Of a DNA stretch of 64,000 nucleotides, positions 1 to 51,772 are shown piece by piece (positions within the stretch are counted from its first letter, which is position 1; each line of letters opens with the position of its first letter). The notes beneath the pieces are model-generated. The model saw only the letters and a program-made list of their open reading frames with translations, did not search any database and was not told where the DNA came from. Source of the stretch: Fenollaria massiliensis (GTDB taxonomy: Bacteria; Bacillota; Clostridia; Tissierellales; Peptoniphilaceae); the NCBI RefSeq assembly GCF_000312505.2, contig NZ_HG326225.1:262249-326248 (forward strand), given 5' to 3'. Both the position numbers and the translations under genes were made by a program.

Positions 1-980
1 CTTGAGCCCTTAACGCCTTCAAGCTTGAATAATATTTTAGTATTGTCCTTTGATTTGATAGTTTTATCAAAGTCATCGCCTTCAAAAACTTCAACTCTGT
101 CAATCTTTTTAAGCTCTTCGATAAATTCTAGACACTTAGTTACATTGTGATGAAGCTTTTCTCTGCCTTCACCGTCCATGTATGCACAAGCTGTTTCGTT
201 TGATAGTGTAAATAGATACGATGGTGAAGTTGTTGTATATAGCTGGAATCTATCTCTAAGTTTATTTGTATCAATTCTTTCAGAACCAACATGAATCATA
301 GATGTTTGTGTAAAACCAGTAAGTGTTTTATGAGTTGAGTGTATAACTATGTCCGCGCCGCATTCAAGAGCTGACTTAGGTAGTCTGTCATCAAATTTCA
401 TGTGAGGTCCGTGAGCCTCGTCAACCATAAGTATCTTGCCATAGTTATGACAAATTTCTGCTATCCTTTCAAGGTCTGAAGCGATTCCGTAGTAATTAGT
501 GTGAGTTACTACAACAGCCTTTACCTCAGGATTGTCAAGGATTAAGTCTTCTATCTCATCTGGATCAACCCCAGTTAGAACATGATAGTCATCGTTATAC
601 TTTGGATATACATAAACAGGATTTAACCTATTTAGTATCAAAGCGTTATATACTGATTTATGGCAGTTTCTTTGAACAATGATGGTATCACCTGGCTTAG
701 TTATAGTTGAGATAGCAATATATATGCTACCAGTAGAACCATTAACAGCGTAGTAAGTGCTCATAGCACCAAATACTTTAGCAGCTTCTTGCTGACTCTC
801 AAGAATAACTCCTCTTGGCTCAAGCAAATTGTCCATGCCATAAGTTTCTGTCGTGTCAATAGCTGGGATGTAATCGCCCCAGTTAAATAGTGTGTTCTTT
901 CCCTTATGTCCAGGCATGTGGAAAGAAACCGAATTTTCGTCTTTTAATTTTGATAATGCTTCAAAAACAGGTCTTTTCAT
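1..980 (-). CDS. Orn/Lys/Arg decarboxylase family protein (3' part beyond the window)
   Basis: PLP-dependent aminotransferase-fold decarboxylase of the SpeA/CadA/YaaO group, predicted to decarboxylate arginine, lysine or ornithine to a polyamine or diamine in the cytoplasm. The 326 visible codons start MKRPVFEAL and carry HMPGHKG near residue 21, a DEAHGPH segment and the PLP-lysine motif STHKTLTG near residue 217; these are the family landmarks. The start at 980 is preceded by AAAGGAG. The frame stays open to base 1, so the C-terminal domain lies outside the window and the substrate cannot be decided. It lies 11 bases after the membrane-protein gene and probably belongs to the ispE operon. 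Confidence 0.9.
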   Translation of the reverse strand, partial: MKRPVFEALSKLKDENSVSFHMPGHKGKNTLFNWGDYIPAIDTTETYGMDNLLEPRGVILESQQEAAKVFGAMSTYYAVNGSTGSIYIAISTITKPGDTIIVQRNCHKSVYNALILNRLNPVYVYPKYNDDYHVLTGVDPDEIEDLILDNPEVKAVVVTHTNYYGIASDLERIAEICHNYGKILMVDEAHGPHMKFDDRLPKSALECGADIVIHSTHKTLTGFTQTSMIHVGSERIDTNKLRDRFQLYTTTSPSYLFTLSNETACAYMDGEGREKLHHNVTKCLEFIEELKKIDRVEVFEGDDFDKTIKSKDNTKILFKLEGVKGS

Positions 981-44755: not shown

Positions 44756-44904
44756 TTACATCGCCGAAGGCGATGGCAAGGTTGCTAAGTCCGTGCACCA
44801 AGAGAACGAGTGAAACGAAGTTCGATTGGCAATGCATGCCTTATGCCAGAGATCACAAAGGTATCAAGCGAAGCGAAGATAGCTTTGATTGATCTTACGG
44901 CTGG
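44756..44904 (+). repeat. 149-bp dispersed repeat, copy A (inverted relative to copy B)
   Basis: About 95% identical (seven mismatches counted by eye) to the reverse complement of 51236-51384. It begins with the CGCC-gaa-GGCG hairpin and contains several short stem-loops, such as GAAC...GTTC and GGCAT...ATGCC. Not coding by any convincing measure. It fills part of the 480-base gap between radA and carD. Confidence 0.9.
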
Positions 44905-44945
44905 GGTACCCATCCAACACGAAGTGTTGAGATAGGGTCGGGTTC

Positions 44946-45095
44946 TTTTACATCGCCAAAGGCGATGGCAAGGTTCCGGGGTACCCATCCAACACGAAGT
45001 GTTGAGATAGGGTCGGGTTCTTTTACATCGCCAAAGGCGATGGCAAGGTTCCGGGGTACCCATCCAACACGAAGTGTTGAGATAGGGTCGGGTTC
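44946..45095 (+). repeat. Two perfect tandem 75-bp repeats next to radA
   Basis: Units 44946-45020 and 45021-45095 are identical. Each holds two hairpins: CATCGCC-aaa-GGCGATG and AACAC-gaa-GTGTT. The second half of the unit also follows copy A at 44905-44945, and a complete inverted copy with a changed first stem is at 51671-51742. The array ends at the base before the radA stop codon. Confidence 0.92.
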
Positions 45096-46457
45096 TTATA
45101 ATTTTAGTGCATCTATTAGCGAAGAGCACTTAATTAACTCTAATTTTGTGAATTTTGTTGATAATTTTGCTTCGCTGCTAATCACTGCCCTTTTATAGCC
45201 CATGCGTTCAGCTTCTTTGAGTCTTCTTTCGAGCTGAGGCACTTTTTTTAATTCGCCCGTTAATGATATATCAGCTATATACACAGTGTCCGAGCTTAAT
45301 ACCTTATTTACTAGCTGTGAATAAATTGCCGCGATTAACGCAAGATTCGATGCGTCTTCTTTAAGCTTAAGTCCACCCATTGACTTGATTACGACATTTT
45401 TATCAAACATATCAACATTTAATCTCTTCTCCATGATTGAAAGAAGTGTATTTAGTTTTTCTCTAGACATATTCTCGCTTATACGCGATGGATATGGTGT
45501 ATATGACTTAGTTACAAGTGCTTCTACCTCAAGTATGACTGGTCTAGTGCCTTCCATATTTACGGTGATGGCGCTGCCAGGAAAATTATTTTCTTTTCTC
45601 GCAGAAACAAAATACTCGCTTGGATTATCGATAGATACAAGGCCTTTTTCTTGCATATTCATAAAGCCCATCTCGCCTGTGGCTCCATAACGGTTTTTGC
45701 TCGCAACAATGGTCCTTAGTGAATCATTTTGATAAGTATCCATAATTAAAACGGTATCTACAAGGTGTTCTAGGGTTCTCACACCTCTTAGCTCATCATC
45801 TTTTGTCATTTGACCAACAATAAAGACTATACGAGGCCTTTGTATATTTTTTGCAAGATTAACTAATTCATATGCGCACTCAACTGTTTGCGTTGGTGAA
45901 GCTGGTCTAGATGGCTTGTACTCATCAAGCTCGACAGTTTGTATCGAGTCAACAACTACCATGTCAGCGTCGACTCTAAGGACTTCTTCCTTAATATTGT
46001 CAAGACTCATATCACTAATTATATATAAGTCATCCTCGATAGTATCAAGTATCCTGTCTGCCCTTTGCTTTATTTGGCTCTCAGACTCTTCGCCTGATGC
46101 GTATAAAACTTTAAGTCCTTTTTTACAAGCATCGTTCGCTATTTGCAAAAGTAGTGTACTTTTGCCGGCGCCCGGTTTTGCTGTAAGTATAGTAACTGAG
46201 TCCTTAACTATGCCCTCTCCCATAACTCTATTGAACTCTTCGAAACTTGTCTTGAGCCTATCTGAGTTTGACGAAGTTACAGTTTTTAACTGCATTGCCT
46301 TACTTTTTATGCTTTTTTCTTTTTTTACCGCTTTTTTCGTATCCTCCATGACTTCTTTTAGGCTGCCCCAAGAACCACACTCAGGACATTTACCTAAGTA
46401 GCCGCTGGATTCGTAGCCGCACTCGCTACACTTGTACAAGCTCTTCTTCTTTGCCAT
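45096..46457 (-). CDS. radA: DNA repair protein RadA
   Basis: Branch-migration ATPase of recombination, 453 residues. The zinc finger [18 protein letters not shown], Walker A AKPGAGKSTLLL, Walker B MVVVDSIQ, the RadA-specific KNRYGATGE motif and the C-terminal Lon-like protease fold (SLTGELKKV) are in place. The start [10 protein letters not shown] at 46457 lies inside the end of clpC and aligns with the family start. The hairpin repeat array begins immediately after its stop. Confidence 0.95.
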   Translation of the reverse strand: MAKKKSLYKCSECGYESSGYLGKCPECGSWGSLKEVMEDTKKAVKKEKSIKSKAMQLKTVTSSNSDRLKTSFEEFNRVMGEGIVKDSVTILTAKPGAGKSTLLLQIANDACKKGLKVLYASGEESESQIKQRADRILDTIEDDLYIISDMSLDNIKEEVLRVDADMVVVDSIQTVELDEYKPSRPASPTQTVECAYELVNLAKNIQRPRIVFIVGQMTKDDELRGVRTLEHLVDTVLIMDTYQNDSLRTIVASKNRYGATGEMGFMNMQEKGLVSIDNPSEYFVSARKENNFPGSAITVNMEGTRPVILEVEALVTKSYTPYPSRISENMSREKLNTLLSIMEKRLNVDMFDKNVVIKSMGGLKLKEDASNLALIAAIYSQLVNKVLSSDTVYIADISLTGELKKVPQLERRLKEAERMGYKRAVISSEAKLSTKFTKLELIKCSSLIDALKL

Positions 46458-48900
46458 TTTTAAATTCCAATTCCTTGCCATTGTAGTAAATAGTGATGCT
46501 CTTGTCCTTAGAAACATTATTTTTCAAAATTTCTTCAGACAATCTATCCTCTATCATCTTCTTAAATGTTCTCTCTAAAGGTCTTGCACCATATTCAAGG
46601 TCAAAGCCCTTATTCGCGATCTCGTCTTCAACAGACTTGTCGATCTCGATAACTATACCCATCTCCTTAAGTTTTGCCTTAAGGTCTTCCGCCATCAAAT
46701 GAACAATTTTTTCTATATCATTTTCTTTTAATTGATTAAATACAACGATGTCGTCCACCCTATTTAAAAATTCTGGTCTAAATGTCTTTTTAAGCTCTTC
46801 GTTTGCAATTTCAGAAATTTTCTTCTTTTCGCTTTTTTCTTCACTAGATGCATCGCCAAAACCATAAGTATTTTGCTTTTTGAATCTATTTGCACCAACA
46901 TTACTTGTCATGATTATGACTGCGTTTTTAAAATCTACAGTTCTGCCCTTTGAGTCAGTTAATCTGCCATCGTCAAGTAATTGTAATAAAGCGTTAAAAA
47001 CATCTGGATGTGCTTTTTCAATCTCATCAAATAATACTACTGAGAATGGTTTTTTTCTAATCGCTTCAGTTAGCTGTCCGCCTTCATCGTATCCAACGTA
47101 TCCTGGTGGCGGACCTATAAGCTTAGATACGCTGTACTTTTCCATGTACTCACTCATGTCTATACGTATCATTGCGTTTTCATCGTTAAATAAGCTCTCT
47201 GCAAGTGCTTTTGCAAGATAAGTTTTACCCACACCGGTTGGTCCAACGAAGATAAAGCTTCCTATAGGCTTGTTTTTGTCCTTAAGCCCAACTCTCGCTC
47301 TCTTAATCGAGTGACTAAGTACGTCTATAGCCTCGTCTTGACCAATTACTTTTGCTTTTAAATTCTTATCAAGATTTAAAAGTTTTTCTTTTTCTTCTTC
47401 ACTAAGTTTTTCAACAGGAATACCAGTCCATTTTGAGACAACTCTTGCTATATCGTCAAAACCTATCTTCATGCTGTTTAGCTCTGATTTTTGCTTCCAC
47501 TCAGTCCTGTCTAGGTCCATCTTGTCCTTAAGTTCGCGTTCCTTGTCCCTTAATTGAGCTGCTCTCTCGAAGTCTTGGGCTTGTATCGCTTGAATTTTTT
47601 CGGATGAAATTTCTTTAAGCTCGTCCTCTATCTCCTTAAGGGATAATGGTCTTACATAATTTTTCATTCTAACAAGTGATTGAGCCTCGTCGATTAGGTC
47701 TATGGCCTTGTCTGGCAAATATCTATCCGAAATATATCTCTTTGATAATGTCACAGCCGCTTCGATGGCTTCGTTTGAGATTAAAACTCTGTGATGCGCT
47801 TCGTACTTGTCTTTAAGACCTTCTATGATCTTAATAGCATCTTCTTCACTTGGCTCTTCAACTAAGATAGTTTGTAGTCTTCTTTCAAGTGCCGCATCTT
47901 TTTCGACATATTTTCTGTACTCATCAACAGTAGTTGCACCAATTATTTGTATCTCGCCTCTTGTAAGGTATGGTTTTAGTATGTTTGACGCGTCAAGCGA
48001 GCCTTCAGACGAGCCAGCTCCAACTATAGTATGAATTTCGTCAATAAATAAAATTACATCGTTTCTTTGTCTAAGCTCTTCAAGTAAATTCTTGATTCTG
48101 CTCTCAAACTCGCCCCTGTACTTAGATCCAGCGATTAAGCTAGTTAAGTCAAGGGAGAATATCTTTTTATCTCTAATAATCTCAGGAACATTTCCCGAAA
48201 CAATTCTTTGCGCAAGACCTTCAGCGATGGCTGTCTTGCCGACACCTGGCTCACCGATTAGAACTGGATTGTTCTTTGTCCTTCTCATAAGTATTTGAAT
48301 AAGTCTTTCAATCTCAGACGCTCTGCCAATTACAGGATCTATCTTATCCTTAATCGCAAGCTCATTTAAGTCCAATGTATACTTTTGAAGCGCTTCGCCA
48401 TCACCCTCTGTCTCCTCATCAAAGCCATCATCTTCTTGATAGCCGACTTGATTAAAACTTCTAAGGCTATTGAGATAACTTGATAATGATGATAAAACCT
48501 TATCTTTATCTACACCAAATCTATCTAGTATGATAGATACAGGCGCTTCGTTCATTTTTACAATTGAATATAAAATGTGCTCAGTCGTTACAATTGGCGC
48601 ACCAGATTGATTTGCCATCTTGATGGACTCTTCTATCACATATTTTAAACTTGCTGAATAATATATGTCCTCTTGCTTTTTCACGTCAAGCACTGATAGT
48701 TTTTCAACCATTTCTTTAAGAGCTTCCATCTCAAGACCATTTTGTCTTAAAATTTCGGAGGCCTTAGTCGTGTTTGCGCTTAAAATACCGATTAAAACGT
48801 GAGAAGGATCAACTTCACTTTTAAACATCCTTCTAGCTTCTTCCTCGGCTATTTGAAATGAGAATCTTGCATTTCTAGTAAATCTTCCAAAAACTGCCAT
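46426..48900 (-). CDS. clpC: ATP-dependent Clp protease ATP-binding subunit ClpC
   Basis: AAA+ unfoldase of 824 residues that feeds ClpP. N-domain repeats (1-145), D1 with Walker [14 protein letters not shown] and [10 protein letters not shown], a coiled-coil middle domain with UVR-like [22 protein letters not shown]2 with [26 protein letters not shown] and the ClpP-binding loop region. In the N-domain the second phosphoarginine-site motif (TTEHILYS) keeps its Glu107, but the first site reads DPSHVLIG, with Ser33 where Bacillus ClpC has Glu32. Fourth gene of the CtsR-controlled operon. Confidence 0.96.
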
Positions 48901-48943
48901 ATTTATCTCCTTTCTTTATATAATTCTATAAATCTTTATTTTC

Positions 48944-49969
48944 TTATTCATTAATATCCTTGTCAATAAATTTTATTTTGCCAAGCTTTTCTCTAAGTAT
49001 AGTCGCTCTTTTTTGGTCAATTTCTGACTTGTCGCTAATGGAGTAAGTATACTCAATAGCTTCAGGCGTTATCATTAGATAAAGACTCGCATCAATGCTT
49101 GCTTCAACTGGATCGAGAAGGTCCATGCTTCTTGCGAACATCAGATTTGATAGATATATTAGTGCCTCGTCGTAAGAGATAAGGCTCGCCACCTTAATCA
49201 TCTCCAAAGCCTTCATAATTCTGTCTTTCATCAAGATGTAGTTTTGCTCAAGATATCTGCGTCTATTTTCATTCTCGTAGACAATGATATTTTGGTCAGT
49301 CAGCATGGAAAGCTTTTTAAATGACTCGATATTAGTAAATTTATTGATGTTCGCGTCTAAGATGTAGATATCCTCTATCTTAGAACCATCAGGTCCAATA
49401 AGCGGAGTAAGTCTGATTTTTTCCATGTCATCGCTTATTAGCTCATCCTTCTTAAACTCGTCTCTTCTGTATAGATGCACAATCTTAGCAATGTTTATAC
49501 CGTTACCAATATTAACAGGGTCACTAGTCAAATAACCGTAGTCTTCATCAAATTGGAAGTCTATCGACTTATCAAGCTCACGCTCTATATCTATGGCGAT
49601 GTCTACAAGCTCGTCAGCACTTGCTGTTCCAAGCACTCTAATCTCGATATGGTCGTTGTTATTTATAACTATAGCGATGGATTTGTCTTCATCAAGCAAA
49701 AGTTTAGTTCTAGTAATGTTCTCTTTTACTGACTCATCCATAAAACCCTTTGCTAAAAAATATTCAAATTTTTCCTTATCCATGTTTGACACTTCATAAA
49801 GCATAAAACTGTAGCTAGTGTTTTTTAACGCTTCTAAAACCATGTTCAAAATTTCGTTAAGCTTTGACCACATCAGCATGTCAGGGTACTTATAGCCCTT
49901 GATATTTCTCTTTAACGAGACTATGGTGTTTAAGATGTATTTATTGTAAATCGTCATTGTTCTCGCCAT
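48944..49969 (-). CDS. mcsB: McsB-like protein, probable pseudo-arginine-kinase
   Basis: By position (ctsR-mcsA-here-clpC), length (341 aa) and segments such as DEDYGYLTSDPVNIGNG and ATILREKLGK, this is McsB, the protein-arginine kinase that tags proteins for ClpCP. However, the conserved catalytic cysteine (LTSCPTNVGTG in Bacillus) is Asp150 here, the N-terminal SRIRLAR motif reads TIVSLKR, the NEEDH acidic motif reads NNNDH, and the RGIYGE loop reads LTPLIGPD. ATP binding and transfer are therefore unlikely. It may act as an adaptor only. The start at 49969 has a weak site; an ATG four codons later is also possible. Confidence 0.85.
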   Translation of the reverse strand: MARTMTIYNKYILNTIVSLKRNIKGYKYPDMLMWSKLNEILNMVLEALKNTSYSFMLYEVSNMDKEKFEYFLAKGFMDESVKENITRTKLLLDEDKSIAIVINNNDHIEIRVLGTASADELVDIAIDIERELDKSIDFQFDEDYGYLTSDPVNIGNGINIAKIVHLYRRDEFKKDELISDDMEKIRLTPLIGPDGSKIEDIYILDANINKFTNIESFKKLSMLTDQNIIVYENENRRRYLEQNYILMKDRIMKALEMIKVASLISYDEALIYLSNLMFARSMDLLDPVEASIDASLYLMITPEAIEYTYSISDKSEIDQKRATILREKLGKIKFIDKDINE

Positions 49970-50504
49970 CTTTCACTTTTTCATTTGAAGTCTTAGCCTT
50001 GATTTCATCTCTAAGCTCAGCCGCTCTTTCATAATTTTCTTCTTGAATTGCATTTTCTAGCTCTTTTTTAAGTGCAAGTATCTCTGTATGCATTGGATTT
50101 GCGTCGATATACCTCTTAGGTAATAGGCCTTCATAAGTTTTTTCGCCTCTTAATGAGTTCAAAATCGGTCTGATCTCGTAGGCAAATGTTTTGTAGCACT
50201 CCTCGCAGCCAAGCGTTCTATTCATTTTGAAATCACTAAACTTCATGTGACAGTTTGGGCACTCTTTTTCTTCAAATTCTTCAGTTTCAAAAGTTCCAAA
50301 AAGCTTTTGCAAGCCCTCAAATAGACTTCTTATATCGCTTTCATTTATATTCATATTCGTATATTCTCCGTATTCTCCTTGATTCATTTCATTAAAATCT
50401 CTTAGTGCACATTCAGTGCATAAGTGCTTTTCAATAACTTCTCCATCTAAAATTAATTTTAAATTAATCATCGCTTCATTCTTGTGGCATTCATCGCATA
50501 GCAT
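49941..50504 (-). CDS. mcsA: McsA, zinc-binding activator of McsB
   Basis: Regulatory partner of McsB and CtsR, 187 residues. Four CxxC motifs (CDEC, CTEC, CPNC, CEEC) form two zinc sites, and a UVR motif (EENYERAAELRDEIK, about residue 155) near the C-terminus contacts ClpC. It overlaps the mcsB start by about 29 bases. Its intact cysteines contrast with the changed McsB. Confidence 0.93.
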   Translation of the reverse strand: MLCDECHKNEAMINLKLILDGEVIEKHLCTECALRDFNEMNQGEYGEYTNMNINESDIRSLFEGLQKLFGTFETEEFEEKECPNCHMKFSDFKMNRTLGCEECYKTFAYEIRPILNSLRGEKTYEGLLPKRYIDANPMHTEILALKKELENAIQEENYERAAELRDEIKAKTSNEKVKDGENNDDLQ

Positions 50505-50508
50505 TTTA

Positions 50509-50967
50509 CTACCCCCTTTTAAGTAAAACTAGTAGGATGTTTTTTAATATATCACTTCTAAGTGCATTTCTCTTGTCTATATCAATAGTTAGAGCCCTGT
50601 CATCAATAGACGCAAGAATTATTTCTTTCTCGTCTTTTGTAATGATTTCGTCATCACAAAGCTTTCTGATGATGTCATGAGCTTCTTTGATGGTGATGCT
50701 ATCACCAATGGCGTCCATAAGTATCTCTTTGTACTCGTCTTCATCCTCTAAAAGATCAAGTTTCTCGATCTTGATATAGCCGCCCTCGCCCCTTCTTGAC
50801 TGAATGTAGTAACCAAAGTGAGGCGCAAACCTTGTCGTTAAGACATAGTTGATTTGACTTGGCGAACAGTTAAATCTTATGGCAATGTCATTACGCTTTA
50901 TAAGTATGCTGCCGCCTTCTTCTTCAAGTAAATTATTTAAAAAATATTGAATTTCATCGCTTAACAT
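50509..50967 (-). CDS. ctsR: CtsR transcriptional repressor
   Basis: Repressor of clp and heat-shock genes, 152 residues. The winged helix has NDIAIRFNCSPSQINYVLTT as recognition region and SRRGEGGYIKI as the beta-wing (the glycine-rich heat sensor of this family). The ATG at 50967 follows AAAGGTGAG; a GTG nine bases earlier overlaps it. Its own operator lies 11 bases upstream, so it autoregulates the operon ctsR-mcsA-mcsB-clpC-radA. Confidence 0.95.
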   Translation of the reverse strand: MLSDEIQYFLNNLLEEEGGSILIKRNDIAIRFNCSPSQINYVLTTRFAPHFGYYIQSRRGEGGYIKIEKLDLLEDEDEYKEILMDAIGDSITIKEAHDIIRKLCDDEIITKDEKEIILASIDDRALTIDIDKRNALRSDILKNILLVLLKRG

Positions 50968-50977
50968 ATTTCTCACC

Positions 50978-51023
50978 TTTGACCTTCTTTGACTATTATA
51001 CCATAAGTACCCAAGATGTGCAA
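50978..51023 (-). promoter_or_regulatory. SigA promoter with CtsR operator of the ctsR operon
   Basis: On the minus strand TTGCAC (51018-51023), a 17-base spacer, TATAAT (50995-51000), then at once the heptad direct repeat AGTCAAA-GA-AGGTCAAA (50978-50994), matching the CtsR box consensus. The operator covers the transcription start. Confidence 0.9.
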
Positions 51024-51049
51024 TGGATAAACATTAAGTGTTACTATTT

Positions 51050-51190
51050 TGTTAAAATTTTATAAGAATTGCACCTAGCGCTCGTTCGTTTCACTTCGCA
51101 CTATTCATCAATTCTGATTGAAAATTTTTTTGTAAATAAAAATAACATTCTCTAAAAGAATAAACTTAAATTGATCGTATAAGCGAGAAA
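51050..51190. other. Non-coding stretch with an imperfect hairpin upstream of the ctsR promoter
   Basis: This is the first part of the 796-base gap between ctsR and the EF-G paralogue. AGAATTG (51064) can pair with CAATTCT (51110) around GCGCTCG...CTTCGC. No reading frame with a ribosome site is visible on either strand. Confidence 0.5.
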
Positions 51191-51193
51191 AAT

Positions 51194-51238
51194 AAGGACC
51201 TCACCCAATGACGACGCTAAAGCGTCTATTGGGTCCCG
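51194..51238 (+). repeat. 45-bp hairpin module, copy 1
   Basis: Identical to 51593-51637. CCCAAT...ATTGGG encloses GACGC-taaa-GCGTC, a nested hairpin. It joins the 149-bp copy B at its right end. Confidence 0.88.
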
Positions 51239-51384
51239 GCCGTAAGATCAATCAAAGCCATCTTCGCTTCGCTCGATACCTTTGTGATCTCTGGCATAAG
51301 GCATGCATTGCCAATCGAACTTCGTTTCACTCGTTCTCTTGGTGCATGGACTTAACAACCTTGCAATTGCCTTCGGCGATGTAA
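51236..51384 (-). repeat. 149-bp dispersed repeat, copy B
   Basis: Reverse complement of copy A at 44756-44904 with about seven differences. The two copies flank the ctsR-mcsA-mcsB-clpC-radA operon in inverted orientation. Confidence 0.9.
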
Positions 51385-51430
51385 TGAAGAACCCCTTTAA
51401 TAAATTTAAATTGATCTAATATAAATACTA

Positions 51431-51456
51431 AACCTTGGCACTTTGTGCTTGAAAAA
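51431..51456 (+). repeat. 26-bp hairpin module, copy 1
   Basis: AACCTTG followed by GCAC-ttt-GTGC and GAAAAA. Copy 2 at 51640-51665 differs only in the loop (tcc), so the stem is kept. Confidence 0.8.
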
Positions 51457-51488
51457 AGAAAAACACATGAGTAGTAACCCATGTGTTT
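51452..51488 (-). terminator. Probable terminator for the EF-G paralogue transcript
   Basis: AAACACATG and CATGTGTTT form a 9-bp stem; on the minus strand TTTTTCTTTTTT follows. It lies 285 bases after the fusA2 stop, beyond two repeat modules that would be in the transcript. Confidence 0.7.
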
Positions 51489-51558
51489 CTCTAAGAGAAT
51501 AAATATGAAAAAATATATTAAATATTGTATATTTTTATTAAATTTTCATCTTGCTCAT

Positions 51559-51580
51559 ACCGCTGCTTCTAGCAGCGGAA
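51559..51580. other. Isolated GC-rich hairpin
   Basis: CCGCTGC-ttcta-GCAGCGG is a perfect 7-bp stem with no T run, inside the repeat region between ctsR and the EF-G paralogue. Confidence 0.6.
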
Positions 51581-51592
51581 GAGAATAAATAG

Positions 51593-51637
51593 AAGGACCT
51601 CACCCAATGACGACGCTAAAGCGTCTATTGGGTCCCG
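51593..51637 (+). repeat. 45-bp hairpin module, copy 2
   Basis: Identical to 51194-51238 and in the same orientation. It is followed by the second 26-bp module at 51640-51665. Confidence 0.88.
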
Positions 51638-51639
51638 AG

Positions 51640-51665
51640 AACCTTGGCACTCCGTGCTTGAAAAA
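51640..51665 (+). repeat. 26-bp hairpin module, copy 2
   Basis: As 51431-51456 but with loop tcc instead of ttt. Confidence 0.8.
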
Positions 51666-51670
51666 ATATA

Positions 51671-51742
51671 AGAACCCGACCCTATCTCAACACTTCGTGT
51701 TGGATGGGTACCCCGGAACCTTGCAATTGCCTACGGCAATTT
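51671..51742 (-). repeat. Inverted copy of the 75-bp unit, with a covarying stem
   Basis: Reverse complement of the tandem unit near radA. The AACAC-gaa-GTGTT half is unchanged. The other stem reads AATTGCC-gta-GGCAATT instead of CATCGCC-aaa-GGCGATG, so two base pairs changed on both sides together. Confidence 0.88.
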
Positions 51743-51772
51743 AATTAAATATTTGTATTTTCTTTTATTTTA

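Follow-up and report, generated by a model that had tools for sequence, protein, structure and literature searches.

Small hairpin modules flanking the ctsR-radA operon of Fenollaria massiliensis: a mosaic repeat system probably selected as folded RNA

Why bacterial chromosomes keep many small palindromic repeats is an old question. The closest described systems are the BOX elements of Streptococcus pneumoniae, which have the modular order boxA-boxB-boxC and are over-represented between convergent genes (PMC3049150), and the REPINs, for which compensatory hairpin changes have been reported (PMC3116915). Here we describe two arrays of hairpin modules, array A (44756-45098) and array B (51188-51744), in a 64,000-nt stretch of the Fenollaria massiliensis genome that we refer to as the window (positions 262249-326248 of contig C2 in the 1,709,677-base genome G000). 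Both arrays hold a 118-nt element composed of two hairpins, and a separate hairpin module, AAGGTTC-stem-GGTTCTT, is called the X hairpin below. The mosaic repeat system to which they belong is real and much larger than the window, and with a probability of roughly 0.6 we read the arrays as small, non-autonomous, dispersed repeats of a BOX- or REPIN-like kind that are transcribed as folded RNA.

Copies and paired changes in three Fenollaria genomes

A 150-bp query from the window has nine long matches in G000 (E 6.8e-74 to 2.5e-26), two of which are the window's own, and array B used as a query identifies further copies in G001 and G002, the two sister Fenollaria genomes used for comparison. 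Two covariance models of the 118-nt element, R1 and R2 (the latter built from 74 matches), were run with stricter filters and with at most 28 or 14 candidates scored per genome, so that the copy numbers are lower bounds; R1 has at least 10, 7 and 10 matches at E<=0.01 in G000, G001 and G002, and R2 at least 9, 6 and 11 at E<=1e-4. Copies are thus genome-wide and genus-wide rather than confined to this locus. The X hairpin is more abundant, with about 100 pattern matches in the three genomes. The exact pattern AAGAAC-N(12..42)-GAACCTT is found 39 times in G000 (28 in C3, six in C2, four in C6 and one in C5) versus 10 for the reversed pattern used as a control, and 47 versus 13 times in G002; in G001 (18 versus 13) it is the foldability of the matches that stands out and not their number, with the control matches taken by count. 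Nearly all of the G000 matches are plain hairpins, with the stem at C3:69096 largely broken, and four of those in G002 (797699, 843675, 853365 and 1076457) lack a hairpin. These hairpins lie mostly between genes, with five of 95 overlapping an open reading frame (ORF) of at least 100 aa, and two of the five belong to one spurious ORF over array A. The repeats are dispersed, extragenic and palindromic, as are REP sequences and REPINs.

The fold of the 118-nt element, given here for the strand that we call structured, consists of two hairpins in which internal loops recur and the tips are short. In A2, a MAFFT alignment of 19 Fenollaria copies, the fold has 36 pairs and 99.4% of 684 cells are paired, and double changes are seen at 11 pairs and in 52 cells, compared with 7.6 and 17.0 after shuffling. 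The covariation score of 0.246 is reached by none of 500 shuffles (0.111) and falls to 0.022 or less when the pairing is slid; one of the five measures, the number of further pair types, is no higher than in the shuffles (302/500). Two further alignments were fitted to the model and lean towards its structure: A3, with 21 matches from other genera, has 95.0% of 621 cells paired, 33 double-changed pairs and a score of 0.523 versus 0.166, and A5, with 28 matches (27 distinct, 23 from outside the genus), has 93.0% of 869 cells paired, 35 such pairs and a score of 0.632 versus 0.179. Apart from the further pair types in A2, paired changes therefore exceed the shuffled and slid controls, as a first-pass annotation of the window had anticipated and as is seen in structured RNA families. 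Unpaired segments, among them a GA/GA internal loop and the joining region, are conserved too. The X hairpins have common feet and a freely variable intervening stem (59 distinct short stems, many of them perfect), and in the long X hairpin the feet AAGGUUC and GGUUCUU pair on the structured strand and not on its complement, which can explain the conservation of the word CAAGGTT.

The two strands are not equivalent. Copy B of the 118-nt element folds at -39.4 kcal/mol on the structured strand and -31.2 on the complement, and copy A at -38.6 and -29.2, with folding z-scores of -3.45 and -3.32 versus -1.94 and -1.07. The variable cells of A2 include 16 G.U in nine pairs, no A.C and four other mismatches (a pair that is G.U in all 19 copies was left out), and the G.U to A.C ratios are 29:6 in A3 and 31:11 in A5; the 59 distinct X stems, zipped without alignment, have 15 G.U, four A.C and 34 other mismatches, 17 of which are A.G. 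The sense strand is the structured one in 45 of 54 hairpins. Among the 59 gaps with X hairpins, 34 are co-directional, 19 convergent and 6 divergent, and the co-directional ones divide into 25 sense, seven antisense and two mixed. Counted as gap/orientation cases, 30 of 38 in co-directional gaps are sense (p 0.0005), with 22/27 between forward genes and 8/11 between reverse genes, and the corresponding ratios are 10:10 in convergent and 5:2 in divergent gaps; element orientation thus tracks the flanking genes and not the contig strand. The first-pass annotation had proposed selection on the folded form, either as RNA or as cruciform DNA. Such selection is supported, and because of the better fold, the presence of G.U without A.C and the sense bias, RNA fits better than cruciform DNA; the elements are probably selected as folded RNA in Fenollaria.

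The two arrays and the assembly of the mosaic

Array A lies between radA and carD and array B between fusA and ctsR, and together they flank the ctsR-radA operon (Table 1). The radA and fusA genes were identified by NCBIfam, whereas carD, ctsR and clpC are putative assignments consistent with the order of the genes. All four modules that had been reported as reused in the two arrays were recovered at their places. The approximately 150-bp module forms an inverted pair (44756-44905 and 51235-51384, 95% complementary), and the 75-bp unit has an inverted copy at 51667-51744. The proposed stem swap from CATCGCC/GGCGATG (45023-45050) to AATTGCC/GGCAATT (51717-51744) is present, and the same alternatives separate the species at the carD promoter region, where G000 has the former and G001 and G002 the latter. 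The 26-bp module varies in its loop alone (TTT at 51431, TCC at 51640). In G001 and G002 both gaps hold modules of the same kinds, in a different order and with different stems.

Table 1. Hairpin modules of arrays A and B, in window coordinates
Position	Strand	Feature	Basis
44756..44783	+	Small hairpin TTACATCGCC-GAA-GGCGATG with the word CAAGGTT; adjoins carD promoter region	Sequence read
44784..44902	+	118-nt two-hairpin element, copy A (structured strand)	R1 match G000:C2:307032-307150 +
44903..44977	+	75-bp unit: long X hairpin plus small hairpin	Repeat family D1
44978..45052	+	75-bp unit, identical second tandem copy	Repeat search
45053..45098	+	Third X hairpin (partial 75-bp unit)	Repeat search, sequence
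51188..51238	-	X-type hairpin of ~45/51 bp, ACCCAAT...ATTGGGT, first copy	Repeat family D3
51238..51356	-	118-nt two-hairpin element, copy B	Model match G000:C2:313486-313604 -
51357..51384	-	Small hairpin, chimeric, arms mismatched (AATTGCC with GGCGATG)	Repeat family D4
51431..51462	-	26/32-bp module, stem GGCAC/GTGC, loop TTT	Repeat family D5
51463..51486	-	Hairpin ACACATG...CATGTGT; relatives in G001 and G002 arrays; absent from first-pass annotation	Sequence read
51560..51578	-	Hairpin CCGCTGC/GCAGCGG; in G002 array CCACTGCC/GGCAGTGG	Sequence read
51587..51637	-	X-type hairpin of ~45/51 bp, second copy	Repeat family D3
51640..51671	-	26/32-bp module, loop TCC	Repeat family D5
51667..51714	-	Long X hairpin of 75-bp unit	Repeat I4; fold -20.8 vs -17.3 kcal/mol (complement)
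51717..51744	-	Small hairpin, stem AATTGCC/GGCAATT	Repeats I2/I3

The modules had been thought to join at the shared word CAAGGTT, which is present in the arrays at 44777, 44969 and 45044 (+) and at 51357, 51431, 51640 and 51717 (-), with nine further occurrences elsewhere in the window. This is partly borne out: CAAGGTT supplies one foot of the recurrent AAGGTTC...GGTTCTT helix, and several copies have the 118-nt module placed immediately inside it, although joints of other kinds occur as well. The clearest case of insertion is provided by matching gaps in G000 (L070), where an X hairpin stands alone, and in G001 (L037), where the 118-nt element is inside it, between GGTTC and the stem; in this one clean empty-site comparison no target duplication of two or more bases was seen. 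In another gap common to G000 (L074) and G002 (L133) the hairpins have a common outer frame, GATTTTGCG...CGCAAAATC, and different tips, and L133 also contains an X hairpin fused to half of a 118-nt element at the common word CCTTTG. Both window copies of the 118-nt element sit at the base of an X hairpin, and other copies occur in other contexts. The system thus consists of modular hairpins with an optional inner module inside a frame, as is the case for BOX elements.

Several other arrangements were observed. The ctsR-radA operon lies between the arms of the 150-bp inverted pair, an arrangement that could allow the operon to invert; the gene order is unchanged in G001 and G002. The TAA at the end of the third X hairpin of array A is the radA stop codon (45096-45098, - strand), and at L213:1167-1170 an element end provides the UGA stop codon of the preceding recombinase gene. 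Two sets of three X hairpins face each other across a 1.2-kb stretch of G000 (L100, C3:294500-298500), and two 119-nt elements lie head to tail and spacer-free at a contig end (L154:4-241).

Range beyond the genus

An exact-pattern scan of genome contigs gave F. timonensis only, and blastn in 41 genomes gave weak matches outside the genus; the restriction to the genus that this implied was overturned by the covariance models. At E<=0.01, 30 of the 130 family genomes contain an R1 match, representing 12 of 39 genera; at E<=1e-4, R2 matches are present in 110 of the 249 genomes from the order, representing 46 of 92 genera. Close inspection covered a small part of these loci. Single-copy matches at L226:1300-1423, L229:2465-2588 and L220:1070-1190 overlap the last codons of rlmD/rumA, and similar sequence lies 3' of serine recombinase genes in L238, L214, L224, L230 and L239; the recombinases of L238 and L239 are CcrB-like by NCBIfam at scores far below the cut-off, and the ORFs of the other three are very similar. 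We considered and rejected a link of the elements to a serine recombinase. Because the same sequence overlaps the last rlmD codons (L226, L229), and because serine integrases of streptococci have been reported to target rumA (PMC4701971), the matches behind recombinase genes most probably represent rlmD/rumA 3' ends copied at the sites where mobile elements integrated, and the count of 110 genomes includes such loci. In two genera, elements separate neighbouring tRNA genes in rRNA/tRNA clusters and lie on the other strand from the tRNAs (L208:1171-1287, L209:895-1191 and L221:762-866).

Rfam searches of the window and 43 loci gave no match that overlaps an element; the matches obtained were to rRNA and tRNA, together with sub-threshold ones beside or away from the elements and one to STnc490 in L222, also away from them. 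A mobile carrier was considered and rejected: the 118-nt module has no blastn match in plasmids, array B has none in phages, and the exact pattern has no match in viral contigs. A broader and more tentative interpretation is that these are order-wide, uncatalogued mobile structured RNA modules that spread by inserting into each other's helices, exchange whole domains while the frame stays the same, and owe their retention in untranslated regions to selection on the folded RNA.

Competing explanations and comparison with known repeats

If the arrays are BOX- or REPIN-like repeats transcribed as folded RNA, a trans-acting enzyme would copy each module to new sites, mostly where intergenic insertions are tolerated, and the module would subsequently be transcribed within an untranslated region. 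Selection would then keep the fold, an intact hairpin shielding or ending the transcript and an unfolded or antisense copy being lost, and old copies could offer landing pads and short homology for new ones, giving rise to the mosaic. Several points weigh against this interpretation. Among 46 model matches in G084 and G139, 13 of 20 co-directional ones are sense, which is not significant (p 0.26), so that the RNA argument from orientation rests on Fenollaria, and by a simple script ORFs of 110 aa or more overlap eight of the 46. The orientation test in Fenollaria also relies on gene calls from a simple ORF script, with the replication origin not located, and the copies are related, so that alignment cells are not independent events. 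Some of the 3-base loops (GAA, GTA) would also suit single-stranded DNA, and the stem of the chimeric hairpin at 51357-51384, which the first-pass annotation did not include, is broken. Finally, by score and sequence the Fenollaria Y1 transposases resemble IS200 or IS200 fragments, and searches of G000-G002 with PF01797 (E<=0.001) and with profile A6 (E<=1e-8) found no REP-associated tyrosine transposase (RAYT). IS200 was rejected as the mover, as the three G000 copies that were read have end hairpins of their own that differ.

The folded form under selection could instead be single-stranded DNA that a RAYT, a REP-type Y1 transposase, uses as its substrate, with the elements being REPINs or cargo inside REPINs and RNA playing no part, an explanation that we regard as doubtful although it has some evidence in its favour. 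REP-associated tyrosine transposase is the best NCBIfam match of Y1 genes in the element-rich relatives G084, G144, G145, G140, G017, G099 and G116 (REP_Tyr_transpos is the best match in nine proteins scanned, one above the 80-bit cut-off and the rest at 56-72), and RAYT-like genes of at least two kinds were seen in relatives from the same family at L222:6577-7113, L242:2294-2806 and L246:3302-3982. Elements lie beside such genes in G085 (two, 375 and 591 nt to the 3' side) and G144 (several matches within 1.1 kb upstream); in G116 the nearest is 1.2 kb away behind another gene, and none was found at E<=0.01 in the stretches around the RAYT-like genes of G145, G084, G140, G099, G017, G061 and G064. 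One RAYT type is present in six of 13 family genomes with at least eight R2 matches versus five of 117 others (p 1e-4; by genus 5/9 versus 3/30, p 0.009), an association inflated because the query was built from those six genomes, and RAYT-like genes also occur in G061, G064, G082, G124 and G125, which have no R2 match listed at E<=1e-4. The sequence GTAGGGG is within 250 bp of 14 of 26 elements in four genomes with this RAYT type (G144 4/4, G145 1/1, G084 8/18, G085 1/3), and at L160 one element is nested between the two arms of a GTAGGGG palindrome. However, it is near none of 28 elements in G139 and none of six in G116, which has another RAYT kind, it is abundant anyway elsewhere in the fetched G144 and G145 stretches (22 and 13), and it is not part of the AAGGTTC hairpins. 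The dependence of orientation on the flanking genes rather than the contig strand also argues against selection in DNA. With RAYTs in relatives and none found in Fenollaria, the mover is unproven.

Three further explanations are less probable still. In the first, mutation alone, without selection, would pair the changes, one arm being used to rewrite the other through template switching or quasipalindrome correction as the DNA is replicated. Quasipalindrome correction is known to make perfect palindromes, and both the freely changing loops and the many perfect X stems would follow from it. It predicts equal G.U and A.C and no preferred strand, whereas 16:0 and 15:4 were seen, and the unequal fold energies, the sense bias and the conserved unpaired segments make it unlikely. 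That the modules act as a local RNA regulator of the clp/ctsR, fusA and carD region, as a heat-shock thermometer or leader, would agree with the same kinds of modules being in the same two gaps of all three species, but most copies are found elsewhere, the module content differs per species, and the arrays are placed behind radA (A) and ahead of the promoter-like region of ctsR (B), and we consider this very improbable. Least probable of all is a retro-mobile RNA, in which modules insert as RNA into transcripts and are then reverse transcribed. This would give the sense bias directly, and would be compatible with insertion into another module's helix at GGTTC and with the lack of a target duplication in the single clean comparison, but G000 has a single match to the reverse transcriptase domain RVT_1, and none was found in G001 and G002. 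We therefore favour small non-autonomous mosaic repeats transcribed as folded RNA.

A two-hairpin family with many copies, in matching gaps of three sister species, makes it possible to separate selection at the DNA level from that at the RNA level, by G.U versus A.C and by sense versus antisense, and the same family lets the stepwise assembly of a mosaic be followed. No earlier description of these repeats was found among the titles listed in the literature searches, and the main text of PMC8040213 makes no mention of Fenollaria, Peptoniphilus, Anaerococcus or Finegoldia. A covariance model is now available for an element that behaves in covariation tests like a structured RNA family and that no match among the Rfam 15 families overlaps at the loci searched.

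Among the described systems, the REPINs and REP-RAYT systems are alike in being dispersed extragenic palindromes with compensatory changes (PMC3116915, in the sections consulted), and several element-rich relatives have RAYT-like genes; the differences are that no RAYT was found in Fenollaria, for which reason we do not file the elements as REP/REPIN, that conserved internal loops are present in the two hairpins of the 118-nt element, and that in G139 and G116 this element has no GTAGGGG nearby. Other intergenic repeats of mosaic or palindromic form that can alter mRNA processing when transcribed are the BIMEs, ERIC and Correia repeats; they were compared by description, and their account in the consulted portions of PMC3049150 does not include hairpin modules exchanged in a nested way to this degree. 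There is also a likeness to the BOX elements, which that source, in the same portions, presents as small, modular and intergenic, predicted to form stem-loops if transcribed, thought to be non-autonomous mobile elements, and having an inner module that may be absent or repeated within the frame. BOX elements favour convergent gaps; here 19 of 59 gaps are convergent, a raw count without background. Paired changes were counted here on 19 to 28 copies, while BOX was compared by description, and relative to that description the Fenollaria system has at least six hairpin types, modules nested inside the helices of other modules, exchange of whole tips, and an order-wide range.

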